A stretch of 64,000 bases of DNA. Source: Trileptium ribeirensis (lineage: Eukaryota; Nematoda; Enoplea; Enoplida; Thoracostomopsidae). Below are positions 36,087-52,288 of this stretch, in pieces; position 1 is the stretch's first letter, and the number at the start of each line of letters is the position of its first letter. The notes below the pieces were generated by a model, which saw only the letters and a program-made list of their open reading frames with translations, was not told where the DNA came from and searched no databases. Made by a program: the position numbers and the translations under genes. The DNA lies in assembly GCA_030248225.1 (NCBI GenBank), contig JASANE010029352.1, positions 1 through 64,000 on the forward strand, read 5' to 3'.

Positions 36087-36520
36087 TCATTTCGTCTTCA
36101 ACCCATCAGGGATGTTCAGTGTCGGACAAGGCTTCATGATTGGGGGCTTAACATTTTTTAATCCCAGACTAACAACAACTTGGCGCCGCGATTTGACTGA
36201 TGGCGGATTAAACGACTTCTCCGCTGCTTCGGCTGTTTTACCAATTTCACATTCATCATCAGTTGCTCTGGCTGTTTCAACAGCTTCATCGTTGCGCTCA
36301 AAGTATTCTTTAAGAAGTGTAGCATTCACAGCCTCTTTCATAACATTTCCAGTGCTATCCTTCAGCTTGTATAAGTCCTTTGGCAGAATTTCGTGAACAG
36401 TATAAGGTCCCAACCACGAAGGTGTCATTTTTGAACCTTTGCGCACTGCTTTTCGAGCATTGAAGACAAGTACACCCTTTCCGATGTCAAAAGATGGCTT
36501 TAGTTTTCTTTTTTCGCATA
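36087..36520 (-). pseudogene. C-terminal GPY/F-type domain of the Ginger transposase
   Basis: Second part of the transposase in a shifted frame. Reading minus from about 36515, KPSFDIGKGVLVFNARKAVR then SKMTPSWLGPYTVHEILPKD, YKLKDSTGNVM and NATLLKEYF form a GPY/F module, as found at the C-terminus of gypsy and Ginger1 integrases. An acidic tail (ERNDEAVETARATDDECEIG) follows. It is out of frame with the main ORF by one base at an A run near 36510, so a single deletion probably split one protein. Confidence 0.82.
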
Positions 36521-37528
36521 TTGAACCTTTTGCAACGTTTGCGCCTTTTGAACATTGGTTCGCACAATTTGGTTAATGGACTCTCGATTTTTGCGCAAAA
36601 GGTCGATAGTTTCTTCAACAGTGGTCCCACATTCTGTCATTGGCAATATTTGACGTCCATACATAACTGTAAAAGGAGTAAGTTTCGTCGAACTTTGAAC
36701 CATGGTATTATAGCAGAAGACAGCTTCGCATAGATAAGTATCCCATTTGTCATGGTCGTTGTCATCTATCATTTTTAACAGCAGTTGCTGAAGAGTTTGG
36801 TTGAATCGCTCGACTAAACCTTGTGATTGTGGGTGATACGACGAGGACACACGTAATTCTACCTTGTTGATTTTTGCAAGTTCGGTCATTGTGCTATTGA
36901 CGAATTCTCTTCCGCGATCTGATGAAATAATACTAGGGAAACCTTTGATGAGAAATATTTTGTACATTGACGTTGCGATGGTGATTGCTGTCTTATCAGG
37001 CACAAGTATCGCCTCCGCCCATTTGCTGAAAAGATCGATGACGGTTAAGATAAATTTATTACCATTGTTGCTCATAGGCATTGAAACCAAGTCAATCTCA
37101 ATGGGATACCATGTTGAGGTAATTGGCAGAGGATGAAGCACGGAATTTTGTTTGTCAAAACCCTGTGGGTTTATTTTTTGGCAGCGTGGACAACACTGAA
37201 TGTAACGCTGTACATCTGTTGTCAAACCATCCCAGTAATCGGCTTCGGCGATGTAACTAACCACCTTATTAATACCCATATGGGCGTGGTCATCATGGGC
37301 GCTTTTGACGATGCTCTCACGCTCCGATTGTTCCATTATAACCCGTTGCGTCCCTGACTTTCCCTTATGGTGCAACACACCACCAACAAGTTTAAACTTT
37401 TCAGCAGCTCGTCGCAACGCCCGCTTTTTGTCTTTAATTTTATGATCGCAGGCCCCATCTTTCATCCAGCTCTGAACTGGATAGTGATTATTCTTCAGGA
37501 ATTCAATAATGTCGTTATATTCCCTCAT
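36500..37528 (-). CDS. Ginger-like transposase (retroviral-type integrase core)
   Basis: A 342-residue open frame on the minus strand starting at the ATG at 37528. Residues about 60-120 are an H2C2 zinc-binding region (HHKGKSGTQRVI, HDDHAHMGINKVV, CCPRCQKIN). Residues about 135-290 are the catalytic core, with IEIDLVS and LTVIDLFSKWAEA (first Asp), SSDRGREFVN (second Asp) and YHPQSQGLVERFNQTLQQLL (Glu), so the DDE triad is intact. The end KKEN and stop come from a one-base shift in an A run; the GPY/F domain continues in the next frame. No RT, RNase H or LTR is linked to it, and it lies between Ginger-type ends, so this is a transposase, not a gypsy fragment. Likely inactive only through the C-terminal shift. 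Confidence 0.9.
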   Translation of the reverse strand: MREYNDIIEFLKNNHYPVQSWMKDGACDHKIKDKKRALRRAAEKFKLVGGVLHHKGKSGTQRVIMEQSERESIVKSAHDDHAHMGINKVVSYIAEADYWDGLTTDVQRYIQCCPRCQKINPQGFDKQNSVLHPLPITSTWYPIEIDLVSMPMSNNGNKFILTVIDLFSKWAEAILVPDKTAITIATSMYKIFLIKGFPSIISSDRGREFVNSTMTELAKINKVELRVSSSYHPQSQGLVERFNQTLQQLLLKMIDDNDHDKWDTYLCEAVFCYNTMVQSSTKLTPFTVMYGRQILPMTECGTTVEETIDLLRKNRESINQIVRTNVQKAQTLQKVQYAKKEN

Positions 37529-37679
37529 ATTGCAATATATATAGTTGGTAATAGTAATGAAACTAAAATAACAAAAAATACGTTAATTATAAAGAAATTG
37601 TCTATAACTGTGGATTTGGACGGCTTACCTCGCGGTATTTGTGTTAGTACAGATGTGCTATCACTTATTATGTAGCTTA

Positions 37680-41637: not shown

Positions 41638-44600
41638 ATGGCATTTACGTGCAATAAATGTAATAAAATATTCTCACGACGTGATCATCTAAAGTGTCCT
41701 ATTAACAATGTCCATAGTATACAGTTGAATTGGTGTGAAAGTTGTGGTAAATTATTTTAGCGACAAGACCCTCTCACCAGGCATCAGATAAAGTACTATT
41801 GGACCTCAACGACTCCGGAAAATCCAAGTGTTATGAATGCATCAACAGCACAAAAATCGAGCATCATGAAACAGTCTCCATCGTCAGAGCTGACGCATCA
41901 ACCATCAACATCGATCAATGCTGCCAACCAACCGACGTTGGACGCTGCTCATCAACCATCGACATCTGCTGCTCACCAACCGTCGACCGAAGCTGACGAT
42001 CTCGATAAATTATGCCAGATGGCGCAGGAGATTGTCGACGATCAACACCAACAATCATCAATTGTTGAGTAATGTGATTCCATCACGCTACGACAATGGA
42101 TCAATGAGCTAAAAGTCTATCTATGCAGCTACTACTCGATACCCAAGCAGCACGTCAGCGATCTTTCCGTTTTACTGGCGCAATCGCGTCAGATGTTGGA
42201 GCGATTCATCGAAAGTCAGCTCAACCGTGGAATCAAGCTCTGGATCTCCGTCAAATGTGTACTATACAAGCTCGATGGTACACACTTGACTGCACACTTC
42301 AAAAGCAAATCGCGTGCAATCCTTCGCGGGAACAACATCGATGTCGAGCTGACCGAATTTTTCAACGAATTGACGAAGAAATTGGACGATTTTCAACGCT
42401 TAGGATCCGGATGGGTCCTACAAGACGTGCAACATGCTGATGTACATATCAACAAGTATCGACCGCTGTATGCGTCTTCCTATATCGAACTCCCAACGTC
42501 GATTCGCAACAAGCATGCGGTGCTCAAAATCCAGAAGCGCGATAATAAATACATTTTATGGTCGATATTGACGGCGCTGCACCCTCTCAATTACAATCAA
42601 CATGCTGAGAGAGTATCAAACTAGGAACCATATGTTAATGAGCTTAATATGAATGGCATTGAATACCCCGTCAAGATTAAAGATGTACCCCGATTCGAGC
42701 GTCAGAAGAATATTGCTATTAATAGATACGGACTGGAAGATGGTGTTATTTACCCCTGTATATAACTAAATCCCTTCATCAGCAATACATCCATCTGCTC
42801 CTGTATAAAGAACATTATTTCTCGGTTCGAAATTTGGATTCACTATTCAACCGTCAACGACGTAGAACTAATAAATTATATTTCTGTGATAAATGTTTGA
42901 TCCCATGTTATATTGCAGCTAAGCGGGACGAACATATGCAATGTTGTCGACATGATCAACCGTCCCGAATTCAAATATCACCACGAAAGTCAACCCTTCA
43001 ATTCGCAAACATTCACCGTATGCAACGATCCCCTTACGTTATATATGCAGATTTCGAGATTTGTATACTCGAAAAGGTTTCAACGTGTGAACCTTCAACA
43101 TCCACCTCGTATACAAATCCCTATCAACGTCACACCCCATGCGGTTATGGACTTATTGACTGTTTTGGATGTTGCAACTATAAAGTCCAAATTAGTGAAT
43201 CAACAATATATCGTGCAAACGATACGATTAAACATTTTCTTAATAATGCAATGGAACTTTCTGAACAATATCAATATATTCCAACTAAACCTCTTAATCT
43301 AACTAATAATAAATAATTCGATTTCGATAATACCGAACAAATTGTTATATACGTAATAATTCCATCGATTCCGATGATAAAGCGCGCGACCACTGTCACT
43401 TTTATGAACGATATCGAGGCGCTGCTCACCCACAATGTAATATTGGATTCAGACTTAATCGTGATGTAATTGTTCTATTTCATAATTTACGTCGGTACGA
43501 TGGGCATCTCATAATGTAAGATCTTGGTGTAATATGTAAACAAAAGGGACTAGAGATTGAATGCATCGCGAAAGGTATGGAGGATTATATGACATTCTCC
43601 ATTAAAAGGAAGACAAAGAGGTGTAGCACTCAGACAAGAGATGGAAGTTGTAGTAATCCGTTTATAATGGATGAAGCAGATGTGGAGTATGGTGATGATG
43701 ATGAACCGTGGAACGAAAACGTTGATGGTATCGACTTCATATTGGGCAACGACGATACCGACGACAATGAGGAGATTGGATGGAAGATCCGCTTTATCGA
43801 TACCATCCAATTTCTACCATCATCTCTTCAAACGTTAGTCGACAATTTGAAAAAAACGGGTGTCGATCGGTTCCAAGCGATGCAGCATGTATTTAGATAT
43901 AAACTCAATTTAATGCTGCGTAAAGGTGTATACCCTTACGTATATGTGGACTCCATCGACCGATTCACAGAAATACGCTACGCCATCAACGAGACTTTTA
44001 CTCCAGTCCCACCGATAGTGGTATAGGCGGCGAAGATTATCAACAAGCGCAAGCTGTTTGGCAGGAAATGGACGTTGAGAACCTAGATCAATATCACGAC
44101 ATATACCTGAAAACCGGCGTCCTGCGGCTTCGCGACGTCTTTGAAAACTTTCGATTGTTTTGTCTAGACAAATTTCGTCTAGACCTTGCTCATTACATTA
44201 CACTTCCTAGCTTCGCGTGGGATGCTTGTCTTATGTGTCTTATGAAGACATGCGTCAAGTTGGATCTCATCTCCGACCCCGACATGTACGCATTCTTCGA
44301 GGATGGAATTCGAGGTGGCGTCTCCGTAATATCCCACCGATATGCGAAAGCAAACAGCCCATACTTTCATGGTTACAACGCAGCAGAACTCATCAGCTAT
44401 ATAATGTACCTCGACGCAAGCAATTTATACGCCTGGTCAATGGTACAAAAACTCCCCTGTAATAATTTCAACTGACATTCCCAAACCCAAATCAATTCAA
44501 TTGACTGGTATTCAGTGAACGCAAATGGAGATACTGGATATATACTGGAGGTTGATTTAAATTATCCATATCATCTCCACAACCTTCATCACGATTACCC

Positions 44601-45735
44601 GTTGGCTCCGATCCCCGATGCGATATTGTCCACATACTGCAGTGAGATCAAACAAGATCGTTCTGCACCAGTTGAAAAACTGGTCCCCAATCTAAATGAT
44701 AAACAACATTACAAGGTTCATATCCGGAACCTTCACCAATACCTTGCACTTGGGTTGGAACTCAAAAAGTACTTTCAATCAATGTGTCCTTCAATTCAAT
44801 GTGCATGGATGGAACCATATATTAGTTTTAATACCGAAATGCGAAAGAACGCAAACAGTGATTTCGAGAAAGACTTGTATAAACTGCTTAATAACGCTGT
44901 ACTCGGCAAAACTATGGAGAACGTACGAGCTTATGTTGATATTAAACTTATAACCAACGAACGGAAATTTGAAAAGTTGGTGCCGAACCCCCGATACTCC
45001 ATGTCCTCCATCTTCAACGAGAACCTGGTTGCGATTAAAATGCACCGCAAAACTGTCAAACTGTGTAAACCCATATACCTTGGGTTTACAGTTTTGGAAC
45101 TATCAAAGTCGCTAATGTACAACTTCCATTACAATCATATGAAAGCAATGCATGGTAATAAATGTAAACTGTTATTTACGGATACTGACTCTTTGTGTTA
45201 TTCTGTGGAAACCAAAGACATTTACGACGATATGGCAGCAAATTCATCTTTCTTCGATACCAGCGATTACCCCACAGATCACCCCCTCTTTTCAACTACT
45301 AACAAAAAGGTGCTTGGAAAGATGAAAGACGAGACAGCTGGTAAACCAATCGAGGAATTTGTTGGACTGCGCTCAAAGATGTACAGTATATAGTGTGGCG
45401 CTGTGGAAAAGAAACGGGCAAAGGGTATAAAGAAGGGTGTTGTGAACAAAGACATTCATCACCGGGACTATTACAACATTTTGTTCAGTGGTAGTAACAT
45501 GAAACATAAAATGAATATGATTCGCAGTGATAAACGTTAGCTGAATACAGTGACACTTAATAAGACGAGCTTATCTGCATATAACGATAAACGGTATATA
45601 TCGAACGACGGTATTTCTTCGTATGCGTATGGACATTGCAAAACGTATACTGTTAGTGATGAAGACTTTATTGAATTGTTACACGATTTGTCTAATAGTA
45701 ATGATGATGATTTGCTTATGAATATTGATGTTTAA
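41638..45735 (+). pseudogene. polB: Polinton protein-primed DNA polymerase B with N-terminal zinc finger
   Basis: Replicative polymerase of the element. ATG at 41638 opens MAFTCNKCNKIFSRRDHLKC, a C2H2-like finger with a second pair (WCESCGKLF) broken by TAG near 41758. A Gln/Pro/Ser/Thr-rich linker ends at a TAA at 42070, and the same frame runs on as the PolB N-terminus (SYIELPTSIRNKHAVLKIQK) to a TAG at 42622. Then come 42834-43315 (Zn-binding YFCDKCLIPCY; Exo I YVIYADFEICI), 43376-44026 (Exo II FHNLRRYDGHLI; DHCHFYERYRGAAH) and 44068-45393 (GIRGGVS; motif A YLDASNLYAWSM; motif [17 protein letters not shown]; motif [10 protein letters not shown]). The C-terminus continues past a TAG at 45391 (KGIKKGVVNKDIHHRDYYNI) to 45735. 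About 1,300 codons in all; at least four stops and several frameshifts make it inactive. Confidence 0.93.
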
Positions 45736-45768: not shown

Positions 45769-46826
45769 GGTTTAAGAATAGATTCTAAACTTAAAGATAT
45801 ATACTACAGCCTTACAAGCATTGCAGGTTTTTCAACTGCTCCTAAACTTTATAGAGAAGCTAAACAACGAGGTGATAACATAAAGTTTAAGGAAGTACAA
45901 GATTGGTTACGTAGTCAGGAAACATATACTTTACATAAACCTAGAAGATTAAGATTTAAGCGTAGACGTACAGTTGTTAAAGGTTAAAATGATTTATTTC
46001 AGGCCTATTTAGCTGATATGAGTAACTTGTCATCATATAACAATGCTATAAAATATTTACTTGTTGTTATTGACTGCTTTTCCAAATATTCTTGGGTTGT
46101 GTCTGCTAAGAACAAGACAGCTTCTACTATTTTAAATGCATTAAAATCAGTCTCTGAGCAAGTTAAACCTCAAAATTTTCAAACAGATAATGGTAAAGAG
46201 TCTGTAAATAACCTGTTATTGCAAGGAAAATGGTATAAATGTTTATGCTGCTAAGAATAAGGAAACAAAAGCAAGTATTGCCGATCGTTTTATACACACT
46301 TTGAAATCAAAAATATATAAATATTGAACAGCAACCAATTCCCGTAGATATATTTATAATCTTCAATCTCTTGTAGAAAGTTATAATAATACTGAAAGAA
46401 GTTATGGTTTCACACCTTCAAATGTGGATAATGAGGACGAAATTCGGGAAAAGTTATTTCCAGTGGAAGATGTGGATGTTCGATATAAATTTCACCTAGG
46501 CGATATTGTACGTGTTTCCATTGAACGACTTCCTTTCTAACGTGGATTTAACCAGTTGTGGTCGCGTGAAGTGTTTACAATAAGTAAACAGCTGCCATTC
46601 AATCCTCCAGTTTACGAGCTTGAAGATGCAAATAAGGAAACTATATTGGAAAAAATTTTATAAGCAAGAGCTGCAAAATGTTAAAGTAGTGGGTGACTCG
46701 TATAAAATTGAGAAAATTATACGCAAACGCAAGACCAAAATTGGTATAGAGTACCTTGTAAAGTGGCTTGGATACCCTAAATCAATGAATTCATGGGTAC
46801 ATGAAGAGGATTTACAACCGCTGTAG
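45769..46826 (+). pseudogene. int: Polinton retroviral-type integrase with chromodomain
   Basis: Integrase (c-integrase) of the element. It starts near 45778 (IDSKLKDIYYSLTSIAGFST), then KEVQDWLRSQETYTLHKPRR, the N-terminal Polinton pattern. 46018-46254 has FQAYLADMSNL (first Asp), YLLVVIDCFSKYSWVV, and QTDNGKESVNN (second Asp). After a frameshift, ASIADRFIHTLKSKIYKY follows, where family members carry Glu in ERF; here it is Asp. 46430-46620 (RVSIERLPF, YELEDANKETI) is the SH3-like region. 46690-46826 is a chromodomain: YKIEKIIRKRKTKIGIEYLV, KWLGYPKSMNSWVHEEDL, with the aromatic Y/W positions kept. Internal stops at 45985 and 46252 and frameshifts make it inactive. Confidence 0.9.
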
Positions 46827-47105
46827 GGGTACAATACGTACACGTAGGGGTACACAATAGGGGTAAAAATGTGTACAACATACGGCTACATAGTGGTAAA
46901 TGTAAATTATATACGGGTACAATACGTACCCGTATGCTACAGAATATAGGTACACAGTGGTACATGTAGGGGATATATGGGTACAATACGTACCCATAGG
47001 GGTATAGAATAGGGGTACACATTGATAAATGTAGGGGATATAGCGGTACAATACGTACCCGTAGGGGTACTGAATAGGGATACACAGGGTTACAAAAAGG
47101 AAACA
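46826..47105 (+). repeat. GGGTACAATACGTACCC minisatellite, ~65-bp unit
   Basis: Units begin GGGTACAATACGTAC at 46826, 46915, 46978 and 47044 and continue with TAGGGGTACA and AATAGGGG strings. GGGTAC...GTACCC is itself an inverted repeat. It fills the gap between integrase and ATPase genes and ends just before the TCTTAAAAA box of the ATPase gene. Confidence 0.88.
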
Positions 47106-47133
47106 CAGGGGTAAAAATGGTGGTGTTAAAAGT

Positions 47134-47169
47134 TCTTAAAAAGGTTTAATCATGTAATCCACGATAATT
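47134..47169 (+). promoter_or_regulatory. Promoter-like block of the ATPase gene
   Basis: TCTTAAAAAGG (47134), TTTAAT (47145) and ATGTAATCCACGATAATT lead into ATG at 47170; the box lies 36 nt before the ATG. The same order TCTT(T)AAAA, TTTAAT, ATGTAAT, ATG is found at 47880-47914 and 50660-50696. Confidence 0.6.
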
Positions 47170-47860
47170 ATGGATCATGTATGTAACAAGTGTGAACGAT
47201 CTTATACTTGTCGTCAACATTTACATAGACATAAGAAAACTTGTACAGCTCAAACAATGTCAAGCTGTGATAAAATACTTTTACCTTTGGAATTACCGTT
47301 CACATGTGTTGTGAGTGGTCAAACTGAAAGTGGAAAAACACTTTAGATTTACAAATTACTTAAACACATGTACTTTAATGAAAAGGTGGAGAAAATTTTA
47401 TACTGTTACAGTATTGTTCAAGATATCTACAGTACAATGTTGAGAGGAATACCCAACTACATGAAGGTATACCTTCTGAATTTCCCAATACCACAAGACA
47501 CGTTTTATGCGTATTGGACGATTTAATGATTGAGGCCTCAAATGATGAAATGCTTGCAGCAGCATTTTCCCGTATGCGTCATAATAAGTTAAGCAGAATT
47601 TTTGTTACACAGAATTTGTATCATGAAGGCAAATACATGCGAACAATAACTTGGAACGCACAGTATATGGTTTTGTTCCCGACTTTAGAGATCAGCCCAT
47701 AATACATACTCTGGGAAGGCAAATGTGGCCTTCAAAACCAGACTTTCTCTCAAGCGCATTTGAGCAAGCAACAAGGGAACTGTATGGTTATTTATTTCTT
47801 GATCTGAAACCAGCTACCAGCAGTATACTAAGGGTAAGACAATGTATTTTTCCTGAATGA
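47170..47860 (+). pseudogene. Polinton packaging ATPase (FtsK/HerA-like) with N-terminal zinc finger
   Basis: DNA-packaging ATPase. It begins MDHVCNKCERSYTCRQHLHR, a C2H2-type finger like that on PolB, then LPFTCVVSGQTESGKTL with a full Walker A (GQTESGKT) and a TAG right after it at 47344. It continues KILYCYSIVQDIYSTM. After a frameshift HVLCVLDDLMIEASNDEMLA carries Walker B (VLDD), followed by MRHNKLSRIFVTQNLY (sensor-like), NAQYMVLF and, after another shift, RDQPIIHTLGRQMWP and GYLFLDLKPATSSILRVRQC. Order and spacing match Polinton ATPases (about 230 residues). Inactive through one stop and two shifts. Confidence 0.9.
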
Positions 47861-47913: not shown

Positions 47914-49161
47914 ATGTATCGAAACGTTTATGCGAGACTAAACTTTGTATGCGCCCAGCAATAATCCTCTTTTGTCATTTCCAAAAAAAATTGGTAATCG
48001 AACGTTTTTTGGCGATCCCATATCCATCTTGAAACTGTTTAAAAACATTTTTGCCACGAGCTCCAAAGCGTATGAATTATGTTACCGAACATTTTATAGA
48101 AATTGTTAGGTTGTTGTTGAACATACATTTAGAGAATTTTAATTCGAGACTTGTCATTCGGGAACAGTATATATAGCACCCGACCTCAAATTTTGTTAGC
48201 GAACAAACATGCAGACTCAGTTGCGCAGCGCGTATCCATGGCTGTTCGCGAACATGAATGAGGTATGAACATTTATTCTAATTTAATTCGAATAATGCAA
48301 CACACTCACTGTTCGCGAACAAACGACCCTGTTTTGTTGTTCGCGAAGACTTATGCGAGATTTTATTAGAATATTAAACGTGATTGTTCGCGAACAGAAG
48401 AGCGTGTTTTGTTGTTCGCGAACACATTATCTGAGAGTTTTGAATTTATATCCAAATCCGTTTTTGCAACAAAATTTCTGGTTTTGTTAAAAATTGTATT
48501 TGTTATTTGCTTTCGCGATGACGAATGTTATTGTGCGCGAACCAATTTGTGCAAGGGTATAGTTGAGGTTCGCGAACATGTCCGCTTACATGTTGACGAA
48601 CGAGCAAATGTGTTTTGGAACGTCAAACTGACTAGGTCGATGTATTTCAAGAACGTTGGCTAGTGCAAAGACACCTTTTCGAAAAGTTATTGAACCATTC
48701 GGCTATGAAGTAAAACAGGTGAGTATTTAGTTCGGCCACAAAATTGAATTTTGCGACATGAAATCGAAATCCGACTAAATATCGTTCGCGAAAAATCGAT
48801 GGCAAAACCGCATTTTGTTTCATAACAACGGATAGCGGTCCTCGATCGCTTTTTGCATAATAGGATTATGACTGGGCGCATTTTAAGTTTACTGGCGCAT
48901 TAACGTAATCTAGCGGCACTGCAATTTCTGGCGAGATCAGCAGCTAAAGTTATATCTGCTGTAATTAAAGTTGCACCGCAGTCTTTACTTAACGCATTTG
49001 CAGAAATTGCTTATAATATCATAAAAAACACCAAAACCAAGAGGAAAGTTCTTAAAAGTATTGCAAGCAAACGTATTTCAAGTTCTAAAAAGAAAAAGTT
49101 ACTTAAACCTACTGTGGTCAAGCATTTGATTAATTATTTTAATAAACATTATGGCACGTAA
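47914..49161 (+). pseudogene. Small basic Polinton ORF, split by a TIR element
   Basis: ATG at 47914 starts MYRNVYAR and is cut by the inserted element 47927-48902. After it, from about 48905, the frame reads RNLAALQFLARSAAKVISAV, then QSLLNAFAEIAYNIIKNTKT and a Lys/Arg-rich tail (RKVLKSIASKRISSSKKKKL) to TAA at 49159. A short, hydrophobic then strongly basic protein suits a minor structural or DNA-condensing component, but no named family is claimed. The next ORF starts at 49151, overlapping the stop. Confidence 0.6.
47927..48902 (+). mobile_element. Palindrome-bearing TIR element, copy 3
   Basis: 976-bp element inserted in the Polinton. Left end TTTATGCGAGACTAAACTTT with ATGCGCCCAGCAATAATCCT; right end complemented TAATGCGCCAGTAAACTTAA with ATGCGCCCAGTCATAATCCT. 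Flanking ACG on both sides may be a short target duplication. TTCGCGAACA-type palindromes occur at about 48243, 48311, 48340, 48385, 48414 and 48568. No meaningful coding. Confidence 0.82.
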
Positions 49162-49566
49162 GATGGCAGTGGTACCGGTTAGTTGGTTGGATATAATTAA
49201 GAGTGGAGGAATACAAGATAAAAACCAATAAGAAATGAAATGACTGTTTATGAAACTGGAGAAAAACCAGATTTATCACTCATGTTTCCTAAAAATTTAC
49301 GATCTAAAGCTAAATTAATGCTAAACAATATTAAAGATTTAAAACTAAATAATAATAATGTAATTTATTCGGATAAGACTGTGGGTTCGAATATTTTTGA
49401 TTTAATAAAGTATTTTGTCTCAGATGTCAACTTTTCACCTCCAAGACCTCTTGACTCTGATAAATTTGAATCTCTTCTTAGAGGAGTTCCTTTGTCAGCT
49501 TTTGGAAGAGGTAGAAAAGGTAAAGTAGCTGAGCAGAAAACTAAATGGAGAACTTTGTGGGGGTAA
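49151..49566 (+). pseudogene. Polinton core-like ORF
   Basis: MARKMAVVPVSWLDIIKSGG from 49151, then after a frame change 49240-49566: PDLSLMFPKNLRSKAKLMLN, VIYSDKTVGSNIFDLIKYFV, SPPRPLDSDKFESLL and a basic end KVAEQKTKWRTLWG. Conserved ORFs of this plan (MxVVP start, lysine-rich WRxLW-like tail) occur in insect Polintons/adintoviruses beside capsid genes, but I do not assign a function. One frameshift separates the two parts. Confidence 0.6.
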
Positions 49567-49599: not shown

Positions 49600-49612
49600 A
49601 ATATATATAAAG
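49600..49612 (+). promoter_or_regulatory. TATA-like box before the NADAR gene
   Basis: ATATATATAAAGG at about 49600-49612 is a good TATA box, about 35 nt before the NADAR start at 49645. It is distinct from the TCTTAAAA boxes of the other genes. Confidence 0.5.
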
Positions 49613-49644: not shown

Positions 49645-50154
49645 ATGAATCATACAAAGTATTGTGTTAGCACTGATGGGAAACCACTTGTTTTGTTCCG
49701 ATCTGGATGGAGTTTATTTAGTAACTTTAATATTGCTAAAATAACTATTAATGGAGTAACCTACAACTGCGTTGAACAATGGTATCAAAGCGAAAAGGCT
49801 CGTTACTTCAACGATGAAATCACATATCATCATATTATGAACTCTTATAAACCATCAATACACAAGCGACTTGGACAACAGGTCGCAAATTTCGATATTG
49901 CGGAATGCATAGCAAACGACCGCGCTGTAAACGTGATGAAAGTGGGGATGAAAGCAGAATTTCATCAACTACCTCACGTACGAGCTGCAGTAATGGGAAC
50001 CGAAAACGGGATAATAGCGGAAGCGTCGGAATGGGACTCCTAGGGGAAAATTAGAAAAAACCTGGTCGATGTAAAAACTCGAGACACGAGCGAATGGAAG
50101 GGACTAAACAAGTTGGGTGGCTTATGGATGGAAATTCGAGACGAAAACAAATGA
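49645..50154 (+). pseudogene. NADAR-domain protein (YbiA/DUF1768-like)
   Basis: Member of the NADAR (NAD and ADP-ribose associated) family. Known members hydrolyse N-glycosidic bonds; some remove ADP-ribose from guanine in DNA, reversing DarT-type toxins, and others act in riboflavin-intermediate disposal. Visible signature: WSLFSNFNIAKITINGVTYN, CVEQWYQSEKARYF, KRLGQQVANFD, MKVGMKAEF and GIIAEASEWD, then a TAG at 50041 in frame, then EWKGLNKLGGLWMEIRDENK to TGA at 50152. The NKLGxLWMxIR end and the Glu of EASEWD are hallmark residues. About 169 residues, normal for the family. The single TAG is the only visible defect. The TGA overlaps the next gene's ATG (ATGA at 50151). A NADAR gene is not a standard Polinton component as far as I know. 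Confidence 0.9.
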
Positions 50155-50676
50155 CAACAAATATGACAATAACATCACACATTGGATGCAACGTTGATTT
50201 GTTATATCTATCTTGTGTACTTAACAATTTTGACTTTGATATTTTACGATTTAATTGTGAAATATGGAAATTCAAACCTAGGGGAACGATTTTACGGTTT
50301 TCCAATGGAAAGCTAGGAGTAGTGGGGGTGAGGTCAGAGGATGAAGCAAAACTAATTTTATATATAGTTTACGAAAAATTAAACGAGTTTGTATATTCAT
50401 GCATTCTGCATTCGAAAATTTGATGTACAACTTAAAAATGTTGTTGGAATGTTGAAATGTGGATTTAACTTAAATTTACCTTTCGTCTATGAAAGTCTGA
50501 AATCCAAATACACTGTCATGTATGAAACTGAGTTGCATAATAGTATGAAACTTAAGATTGAGAAGGGTGTGAGTTTGATTTATGGGAGTGGGAATGTAGT
50601 TATAACTGGTTGTAAGTGTATAAATGATTTCTATTTGTCTTGCAATACTGTATATAATTTCTTTAAAAGACTTTAA
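50151..50676 (+). pseudogene. TBP-like protein with two saddle repeats
   Basis: Resembles the TATA-binding protein core. Repeat 1 (50160-50385): ITSHIGCNVDLLYLSCVLNN, FDILRFNCEIWKFKPRGTIL, RFSNGKLGVVGVRSEDEAKL, matching the TBP order NxVSxxxLGCxLDL, RFxAVIMRIxxPRTTxLIF and SGKxxxTGAKSE. Repeat 2 (50405-50676): FDVQLKNVVGMLKCGFNLNL, YETELHNSMKLKIEKGVSLI, YGSGNVVITGCKCINDF, matching FKIQNxVGSxDVKF and LIFVSGKVVLTGAK. The two halves also resemble each other (GTILRFSNGK versus GVSLIYGSGN). The DNA-kinking Phe before SGK is kept in repeat 1 and is Tyr in repeat 2. About 175 residues, TBP core length. A one-base shift near 50410 separates the halves. Start ATG at 50151 overlaps the NADAR stop. Confidence 0.78.
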
Positions 50677-50695: not shown

Positions 50696-51315
50696 ATGGA
50701 AGTTGTAGTGGTTTGCAATCTGAGCGAACCGGTTGTTGAGTTACCGACAGCATTTTGTGCTACAAAAGTTAAAGTACTGGATGTTCAATTTCCCACCAAA
50801 TACAAAAATATTGAGGGTGGTATTGTTGAATATTTCACAAATAAATCTTGGAAACGGTTTACTGTTGATAAAGGCTACTACAGTATCAACAATTTGTTAT
50901 CTTACCTAAACACATTCAGTCAAGACACTGAGTTTACAGTTGACCCCATCTGTGATCGTGTCCGTGTATATATCTTAGGTAAGCCAGAAATTAAGATATT
51001 TCCGGAAATACAACAATTATTTAGATTCAACGCTTTACACCTGAAACACGGTAAACATGTTGGAAACAAATGTGTCAACATGCAACATAACAAACCCACG
51101 TTTATAATGAGTTCTTTTGTGAAAGAACGAATAGTAAACGGAAGATATAAACCACTACTACACGTAATTTCATCTAATGTGAAAAATACAGTGAACCTAG
51201 AGTTAAAAAGTTGCATGTTAAAGTTTTCCGATTTGATGTGCATGATTCAGAATTTCAAACTGTTGAGTTTTTTCCAAACGCAAAGATGATATTGAGGTTA
51301 TGGTTTAGTTCTTAA
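50696..51315 (+). pseudogene. Polinton penton-like minor capsid protein
   Basis: Likely minor capsid (single jelly-roll) protein. 50696-51210: KVKVLDVQFPTKYKNIEGGI, RFTVDKGYYSINNLLSYLNT, FTVDPICDRVRVYILG, NGRYKPLLHVISSNVKNTVN. The order WxVALxxxxYPxxxxNI, then PGYYSxxxLIxxLN, then a short KVxI strand is the typical N-terminal pattern of Polinton/adintovirus pentons. After a frameshift near 51210 the C-terminus reads LHVKVFRFDVHDSEFQTVEF and FPNAKMILRLWFSS, ending at TAA 51313. About 205 residues. Assignment rests on pattern and position before the major capsid gene. Confidence 0.65.
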
Positions 51316-51416: not shown

Positions 51417-51425
51417 TCTTAAAAA
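51417..51425 (+). promoter_or_regulatory. TCTTAAAAA box upstream of the capsid gene
   Basis: TCTTAAAAAGG at 51417 lies 38 nt before ATG at 51455, in the 34-38 nt class. Confidence 0.5.
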
Positions 51426-51454: not shown

Positions 51455-52288
51455 ATGTCTACCGTATGCGACGTCGAAACACTTAATTGGCAGGGTGATA
51501 AGACCCTGTTTAAGACTCAATCATGTCAACACAAATGATCGAAGTCGCTTGTGAAACAACTTTACCAAGCATTGATACAGATGACTCGTTTCGTTTTAAA
51601 ATTGGTGAAAGTGCATTTCATTTGATTGATTAATATGTTCGGGTATGGACTCTTTTCATCGCTTGGGATGAAAATAAACGGAGAACCAATAACGTACAAC
51701 CAAAAACACTACCCCTGGATGACATACATATTATATATGCTACATATGAGTGAGGAACAAAGAAAACAATATTTAGAAGGATGTCTTTACAAACCTGATC
51801 ATACCATATGTTTGATGATCTTGAAGATAATGAAGGTTCCATTTATAGAAAAGCGTTGACTGCGGTGTCTCAAAAATGTGAGCTTTGATTATTGATGCAC
51901 ATTTAACTCCTAAATACCTACCACCAAAAACAAGGTTAGAATTTAAATTTACGCGAAGTACCATCTTTAATACTGTTGCATGAACCAGCTAATAAATTTC
52001 ACATTCGTATCAATGATTTCAAACTCTATATACCTAAAGCACGATTAACAAAAGAAGCTCTTGAAATTCAAAATAGAATTGGAGCAGATAAGATATAAAG
52101 TATATACATTGTCTTTAAATAAAGGTCTGCAAAATGTAGATTGGACAATTTTTGATGGTGTGTTACCCCGTAGAATATACATTTGGGGAATCACGCAGGA
52201 AGCGTACACAGGTGCAGCAAAATCAAACTTGTTTAAACTAAGTCTATTAGATATGAATAGCTTTACAGTATTTATATTTTATTATTAA
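51455..52288 (+). pseudogene. Polinton major capsid-like protein (double jelly-roll), fragment
   Basis: ATG at 51455 (MSTVCDVETLNWQGD). After frame changes: 51530-51632 TLPSIDTDDSFRFKIGESAF, the N-terminal strand region; 51640-51790 LFSSLGMKINGEPITYNQKH, YPWMTYILYMLHMSEEQRKQ, the characteristic hSLFxxVxVxINGxxI...YPYxxYLxxLL block of Polinton capsids; 51980-52080 LLHEPANKFHIRINDFKLYI, PKARLTKEALEI; 52100-52288 VDWTIFDGVLPRRIYIWGIT, GAAKSNLFKLSLLDMNSF. These keep the family order. The C-terminal jelly-roll is short or missing, so the gene is truncated at about 52288, which may be the end of the preserved element. Confidence 0.8.

Follow-up and report, generated by a model that had tools for sequence, protein, structure and literature searches.

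The question raised by this locus is whether a Polinton can carry its own TATA-binding protein (TBP) and, if so, what such a protein would do for the element. The window, i.e., the whole stretch of 64,000 nucleotides that was analysed, comes from the nematode Trileptium ribeirensis, and a preliminary description had recognised in it two successive TBP repeats, with a frameshift near 50410, flanked within a Polinton by NADAR and the capsid-side genes. The two halves are the following:

50151..50420, forward strand: TBP-like gene, N-terminal lobe (Pfam TBP 35.5 bits; TBPs of the PDB at E 9e-12)
50428..50676, forward strand: TBP-like gene, C-terminal lobe, in another frame (Pfam TBP 47.1 bits; pLDDT 91; TBPs in Foldseek)

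Searched apart, each half exceeds by itself the cut-off of Pfam TBP (PF00352; 50154-50420 and 50428-50673, cut-off 22.9 bits), neither half matches another Pfam family at E<=1, and TBPs of the PDB are found by each half alone, the best E being 9e-12 for the first and 4e-7 for the second. In a profile scan of the window, in which 1237 six-frame segments of at least 30 aa were compared with a profile of seven virus-contig TBPs, the two halves alone score better than the inclusion threshold, with E 4e-7 and 4e-6, the next segment being at 0.37. The half-saddle fold of a TBP lobe is predicted for both: the second half is modelled with a pLDDT of 91 as strand-helix-four strands-helix and its top Foldseek matches in the PDB are TBPs (query TM-scores near 0.8); in the first half the elements follow one another in the same way, at a pLDDT of only 70. 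The open frame of the first half runs as far as 50420, and that of the second, a different one, from 50383 onwards. The repeats, the frame switch and the placement of the gene all stand as first described, with the fold better predicted for the second lobe than for the first, and it is confirmed that 50151-50676 holds two TBP lobes inside a Polinton, in a copy broken into two frames.

The genes of the element lie on one strand in the order PolB, integrase (INT), ATPase, U1, U2, NADAR, TBP, penton-like and MCP-like; those other than TBP are the following:

41638..45537, forward strand: DNA polymerase B (PolB), broken, in several frames; two pieces resemble an ORF of an IMG/VR contig, and the start is the authors' own reading
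42073-42621, 42726-43313, 43520-44023, 43924-44472, 44476-45390 and 45394-45537, forward strand: the pieces of this DNA polymerase B
45769..46823, forward strand: integrase with rve core and C-terminal chromodomain, broken (Pfam rve 37.1 bits and Chromo 47.2 bits, above cut-off)
47158..47857, forward strand: A32-like packaging ATPase, broken (Pox_A32 19.5 bits, below the cut-off of 22.8)
48904..49158, forward strand: U1, a small gene conserved in the elements (phmmer to other copies)
49222..49563, forward strand: U2, a gene conserved in the elements (phmmer to other copies)
49645..50040, forward strand: NADAR-domain gene (Pfam NADAR 67.5 bits, above cut-off)
50699..51312, forward strand: penton-like (minor capsid) gene with a frame switch near its end, a neighbour of TBP in most loci (see below)
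51455..52285, forward strand: major-capsid-like (MCP) gene, in several frames, an ORF conserved in four open copies; the start is the authors' own reading

The window copy is broken not only in TBP but also in PolB, INT, ATPase and MCP. Its classification as a Polinton rests on genes, among them the RVE integrase with a chromodomain in the window and the A32-like packaging ATPase, which in the open copy L052 reaches 28.1 bits in Pfam, above the cut-off; terminal repeats and target duplication do not contribute to this assignment, and no terminal inverted repeats were found at the ends of the broken window copy. Two of the PolB pieces match a long ORF (1313 aa) on a 15-kb contig of IMG/VR, at 46% identity over 294 residues and 45% over 171; no Pfam polymerase family is matched by the window pieces or by this ORF, a window piece has no match in the PDB, and the name PolB rests on motifs that are presumed to be those of this polymerase. 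The MCP-like ORF of 415-431 aa and the penton-like ORF of about 205-226 aa are conserved where the double and single jelly-roll capsid genes of a Polinton would be expected, and searches of the PDB, NCBIfam and Pfam gave them no convincing match, the names penton, MCP and membrane protein (TM) being assumed or judged by eye. In the window, NADAR apparently continues in a different frame as far as about 50153, on the authors' own reading; in an open copy the NADAR protein matches the NCBIfam riboflavin-intermediates N-glycosidase above the cut-off and, more weakly and under the cut-off, the NADAR anti-phage protein. No gene for TFIIB or RNA polymerase was found among those element proteins of L052 and L054 and those window pieces that were scanned with Pfam. 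As to the surrounding DNA, the interval from integrase to ATPase contains a GTAC-rich tandem repeat (window 46873-47117), and GGGTACA is the commonest 7-mer of the four longer copies (L052-L055) pooled; a second integrase, on the minus strand at window 36500-37579, has an H2C2 zinc finger and an rve core above the Pfam cut-offs and probably belongs to a retroelement.

A search of the host genome (687 Mb) gave 975 PF00352 candidates, of which 150 were scored, every one of them above the TBP cut-off, one row of this search representing one lobe, and a gene possibly giving two rows. Two of the 150 rows, on contig C9496, are read here as exons of the host's own TBP. Among 30 loci that were fetched, two are the host TBP and 28 are non-host; in all the latter, other element genes adjoin TBP, in particular penton in 26/28 and, directly before TBP, NADAR in 23/28, three of the five loci without NADAR running into a contig end. 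Both lobes lie in one open frame of at least 176 aa in 19 of the 28 loci, the others being broken or cut off, and three open copies give 104.6-111.2 bits with Pfam TBP, in two lobes. The order INT-ATPase-U1-U2-NADAR-TBP-penton-MCP is seen in three of four longer copies and from U2 to MCP in the fourth, with TBP in one frame in all four. Compared with the window, the DNA of L054 is 94-96% identical in the TBP halves and penton and 80% identical in NADAR. TBP is thus one of the conserved genes of a large Polinton family, of which the window contains a broken copy: intact homologues between NADAR and the capsid genes, which the preliminary description had proposed to seek, exist in other copies of the same genome, and its statement that the gene is now decayed holds for the window copy but not for the family, since many copies have TBP as one open frame. 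Some copies depart from this layout: on contig C13935 (L045, L066) pieces of integrase precede TBP in place of NADAR, in a rearranged copy, and the NADAR frame is split in two in L025 and L053 and single in L034.

In the search of the host genome with penton, 150 of 762 candidates were scored and all of them matched. TBP is at least partly upstream in 28 of the best 30 penton loci, several of which overlap the 28 TBP loci, and it is nearly whole and in one frame in 16; one of the two TBP-less loci (L079) starts at a contig end. For 20 further pentons, picked by eye down the list on contigs without a TBP row in the PF00352 search, TBP is at least partly upstream in 17 and nearly whole, in one frame, in 13, contigs C14059 and C13086 being counted in both sets. 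Contigs C11188, C11779, C11168, C2767 and C10697 have U2 directly before penton, with NADAR and TBP both missing; the last three are all of the three near relatives that were looked at. The penton of C11188 is 86-89% identical to those of C11168, C2767 and C10697, 84% to that of the TBP-carrying C3311 and 80% to that of the TBP-less C11779. By penton identity the TBP-less copies therefore stand among TBP carriers, which suggests loss, and NADAR and TBP were likely lost as a pair, as judged from these identities rather than from a tree.

The gene appears to be under constraint in the family. By the Nei-Gojobori method, applied to 17 open copies and 136 pairs that are not independent, dN/dS is 0.12-0.29 in 14 pairs with dS 0.14-0.27 and 0.15-0.40 in 47 pairs with dS 1.2-2.3; two closer pairs give 0.55 and 0.27, one further pair is near identical and 72 pairs are saturated. 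TBP and penton distances are correlated, as would be expected of a long-term resident gene, with an r of 0.989 over 15 rows, a value inflated because L029 and L052 are the same copy and other rows are near-copies.

In a tree of 58 rows, 13 Polinton TBPs group in a single clade (100/98), separate from the TBPs of eukaryotes, archaea and viruses, and the nearest rows are the long-branched P0110, P0119, P0116 and P0103 (97/89), a join flagged by the tree program as possibly false. A profile of the open copies finds 226 proteins among 2025 candidates, and the relatives are 24-35% identical to the first query sequence among the 120 matches listed. P0110, P0116, P0117, P0119 and P0103 form a second group of short two-lobe TBPs, which may be mobile-element TBPs of other hosts; two proteins of the group stand in clusters of 12 and 17 sequences, and at two of the DNA-contact sites discussed below P0116 and P0103 have N at P191 like the Polinton TBPs, P0116 having also H at F190. 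Scans of virus contigs with either TBP half, NADAR, a PolB piece, a penton piece or the alignment of the open TBP copies, as well as protein searches with the first TBP half and with penton, gave no relative. When virus contigs were scanned with cellular TBP patterns, 11 of them had a TBP, and the five placed in the tree join the archaeal TBPs (98/93), in some cases on long branches, and not the Polintons. No TBP was found in the 15-kb contig with a related PolB (L012/G001), of which the first 7.6 kb were read; its ORF adjoining PolB is penton-like by eye and has no significant match to penton, and the contig is unmatched by the MCP profile, in a search without a positive control. In another IMG/VR contig, of 17.4 kb (L007, G002), an in-frame TAG parts the two lobes of a virus-record TBP.

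The residues of the Polinton TBPs were examined in 30 copies, with counts inflated by the near-copies among them; the yeast numbering and the contact roles are assumed here as they are generally given. N69, F99, L114, F116, N159, E186, E188, L205 and T215 are kept in 30/30 copies, F207 is F in 26/30, and at V161 19 copies have V and 11 have A. Four DNA-contact sites are replaced in all 30 copies, V71 by T, T124 by V, P191 by N and F190 by H (20 copies), Y (6), N (2) or Q (2), F itself occurring in none. F99, F116, F190 and F207 are taken to be the two pairs of DNA-kinking phenylalanines, and the Polinton protein is thus a TBP by homology and fold whose classical set of four is incomplete, F190 being absent throughout. 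E186 and E188 are presumably the glutamates that contact TFIIB, and their retention would fit the use of host TFIIB. As far as can be gathered from the accessible part of PMC7221094, virus TBPs mostly keep the DNA face and often do not keep the TFIIB contacts, one TFIIB-contact site being kept in about 40% of them, and they are nearly always accompanied by their own TFIIB, except in poxviruses.

A candidate target of the Polinton TBP is the motif CTTAAAA(A/G)G, which recurs upstream of the element genes and which, in its core form, is found in the window together with a canonical TATA-like site:

47135..47141, forward strand: CTTAAAA before the ATPase gene (for its position across the family, see below)
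51418..51424, forward strand: CTTAAAA, 37 nt before the likely MCP start codon
41628, 45742, 47881, 49051, 50431 and 51311, forward strand: further sense CTTAAAA of the window element
41604, 48881 and 52349, reverse strand: antisense CTTAAAA of the window element
49604..49610, forward strand: TATATAA, a canonical TATA-like site that lies 41 nt ahead of the start codon of NADAR

The window copy has 8 sense and 3 antisense CTTAAAA in 11,100 nt, and the rest of the window 6 and 5 in 49,000 nt. In four copies, totalling 19,280 nt, CTTAAAA occurs 32 times in sense and 2 times in antisense, against a first-order Markov expectation (200 runs) with a mean of 4.8 and a maximum of 11. Among 35 distinct upstreams of the ATPase, U1, penton, MCP and membrane-protein genes, 31 have it between -50 and -20 relative to the start codon, against a maximum of 4 in 500 shuffles that kept base composition only, and most of the distances to the start codon are 30-49 nt. 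In the wider interval from -90 to -15, CTTAAAA precedes ATPase in 3/3, U1 in 5/5, penton in 9/11, MCP in 13/13 and the membrane-protein gene in 3/3 upstreams, and it is mostly absent before U2 (1/8), NADAR (3/10) and TBP (3/13), the antisense word being found there for U1 only (2/5). Since the penton upstreams overlap the coding end of TBP, part of the penton motif could be kept as codons. U2 has seven more CTTAAAA sites 99-100 nt before its start. For INT, the distance from CTTAAAA to the first Met is 35 and 40 nt in two copies, and one of them has in addition TATATAA at a distance of 96 nt; in a third copy CTTAAAA precedes the frame, in which no Met is seen. The ordinary box TATAWAA is upstream of NADAR in 4/10 (antisense 0) and of penton in 2/11 (antisense 4). 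One PolB start has TATATAA 63 nt before the first Met and CTTAAAA at -10; the stretch L111, fetched for a second PolB start, has no recognisable gene. In L034 and L053, TBP itself is preceded by CTTAAAAGG, and L025 too has this word upstream of TBP. Within the first 7.6 kb of the 15-kb contig L012/G001, CTTAAAA is found once on each strand. In the TBP-less C11188 and C11779 there are five sense CTTAAAA each and no antisense one; the motif hence does not need a TBP in the same copy, and the idea of such a dependence was dropped.

The interpretation preferred here, which is judged rather probable, is that the element-encoded TBP directs host RNA polymerase II (Pol II) to the element promoters. 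The protein would bind core promoters of the form CTTAAAA(A/G)G, which lie some 30-45 nt ahead of the coding start in INT, ATPase, U1, penton, MCP and the membrane-protein gene, and would recruit host TFIIB and Pol II to them; these steps are suggested because the TFIIB-contact residues and phenylalanines are kept and no gene for RNA polymerase or TFIIB was found among the element genes examined. The motif and its TATA-like spacing are observed directly, and TBP is its putative reader: of the earlier proposal that the element brought its own promoter-recognition factor, the identity and conservation of the gene and a promoter-like motif in the elements are borne out, and the recognition of that motif by TBP is the conjectural step. 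NADAR and TBP adjoin and an ordinary TATA box is present in 4/10 distinct NADAR upstreams; host TBP may therefore drive early expression of both genes, after which the element TBP would switch on the late, virion-side genes. Copies lacking TBP may be served by the TBP of other copies. A more specific version, held tentatively and with somewhat less than even confidence, describes an orthogonal core-promoter system, in which a re-tuned TBP would read CTTAAAA(A/G)G and not TATA, dock host TFIIB and turn Pol II to the virion genes after the early NADAR-TBP unit. The C-terminal lobe of TBP holds the 5' half of the box, and therefore the altered C-terminal lobe (F190, P191) would match the altered 5' half (CTT for TAT).

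The main rival holds that the TBP is real and conserved and reads ordinary TATA or boosts transcription generally, CTTAAAA being read by host TBP or another factor. Its strength lies in the two TBP-less copies examined, which retain CTTAAAA, in the ordinary TATA box of some NADAR upstreams and in the closeness of CTTAAAA to TATA variants; the replacement of the same four DNA-contact sites in every copy points instead to a changed target, and the exact seven-base word in 31/35 upstreams also speaks against it, so that this explanation is regarded as unlikely. The kept TFIIB-contact glutamates (30/30) would equally suit a weapon against the host, i.e., a TBP that sequesters TFIIB or further general factors and depresses transcription of the host, but a pure decoy would not need the DNA-binding face that is largely kept here, and the elements have a promoter-like signal of their own; such a role is quite improbable. 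More doubtful still is a use of the fold outside transcription, e.g., in bending DNA at the element ends for replication, integration or packaging, to which the two-lobe form, the kept TFIIB contacts and the TATA-like motif at gene starts are opposed, even if TBP lobes do occur in proteins with other jobs such as RNase HIII and rnlA, according to the portion of the source available (PMC7221094). That the gene is a stray pseudogene of the host TBP, or was captured by chance in a single copy, as the broken window copy might have suggested, has a negligible probability: many copies are open and have the same neighbours, their clade is separate from the host TBP exons and from other eukaryotic TBPs, and the relatives are at most 35% identical to an open copy among the matches listed. 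A host pseudogene, chance and a single capture are in fact refuted by the many copies.

This Polinton family carries its own TATA-binding protein, the factor that marks gene starts in eukaryotes, and if the preferred reading is correct, namely that the Polinton TBP turns host Pol II to the element promoters, it may run its own gene-start system inside the host, which would reveal how such a transposon-virus controls the timing of its late genes within the nucleus. Polintons are some 15-20 kb in size, and a Polinton with a TBP that apparently relies on host TFIIB and Pol II would form a much smaller system than the larger viruses from which virus TBPs were known before, e.g., African swine fever virus with its own RNA polymerase. 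It also provides a TBP and a promoter that can be tested as a pair and in which changes may have occurred on both sides, in the protein contacts and in the DNA box, and NADAR-TBP plus CTTAAAA could serve as a marker for finding such Polintons in other genomes.

With respect to known systems, the Polinton TBP is like the cellular TBPs of eukaryotes and archaea (PF00352) in its two lobes, its fold, N69, F99, F116, N159, T215 and the TFIIB-contact glutamates, and differs from them in its low identity (24-35% among the 120 matches listed) and in V71T, T124V, F190H/Y/N/Q and P191N in 30/30 copies. The TBP-related factors of animals (TRF) are also divergent TBPs, and insect TRFs are among the matches listed; in the tree these group with the eukaryotic TBPs, apart from the Polinton clade. 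With Polintons/Mavericks and adintoviruses the elements have in common an integrase with a chromodomain, the A32-like ATPase and, going by presumptive names, PolB and capsid-like genes; unlike those described in the literature searched, they have the NADAR-TBP pair and the shared CTTAAAA motif. In that literature, which omits most subscription papers and was available in part, there is no report of a TBP in a Polinton, adintovirus or Maverick, nor of a NADAR-TBP pair or shared CTTAAAA motif in Polintons, in agreement with the doubt expressed in the preliminary description that Polintons usually carry a TBP. In particular, a term search for TATA, TBP, TFIID and NADAR found none of them in the searchable portions of PMC10120064, PMC8097293, PMC11071308, PMC11071296, PMC3671162 and PMC4028283; TBP appears only in other contexts in the accessible text of PMC7786948, and for one alga TBPs are mentioned in mirusvirus-like elements and not in its Polinton-like viruses, within the sections available (PMC10675990).

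TBPs of giant or algal viruses are described in the available parts of PMC12085832 and PMC11464507. In the former, the TBP of Chrysochromulina parva virus BQ1, which also has two TFIIB proteins, is already proposed to redirect host RNA polymerase, and TBP is given for 59% of mirusvirus genomes, one of which measures 431.5 kb, in the accessible part of PMC10132985; both have a TBP as here, but neither is a Polinton. Compared with virus TBPs generally, in which one TFIIB-contact site is kept in the minority cited above, both glutamates are kept in 30/30 Polinton TBPs. The mavirus-like EMALEs are likewise integrated Polinton relatives with upstream promoter motifs, predicted and taken to point to different giant viruses as far as the available text goes (PMC8547959), whereas the element described here carries its own TBP. 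The closest known plan is that of African swine fever virus, whose TBP homologue B263R is expressed early and proposed to act at late promoters, as stated in the part of the source at hand (PMC7458399); it is a virus-encoded TBP as in the Polinton family, but the virus carries its own RNA polymerase and TFIIB homologue.
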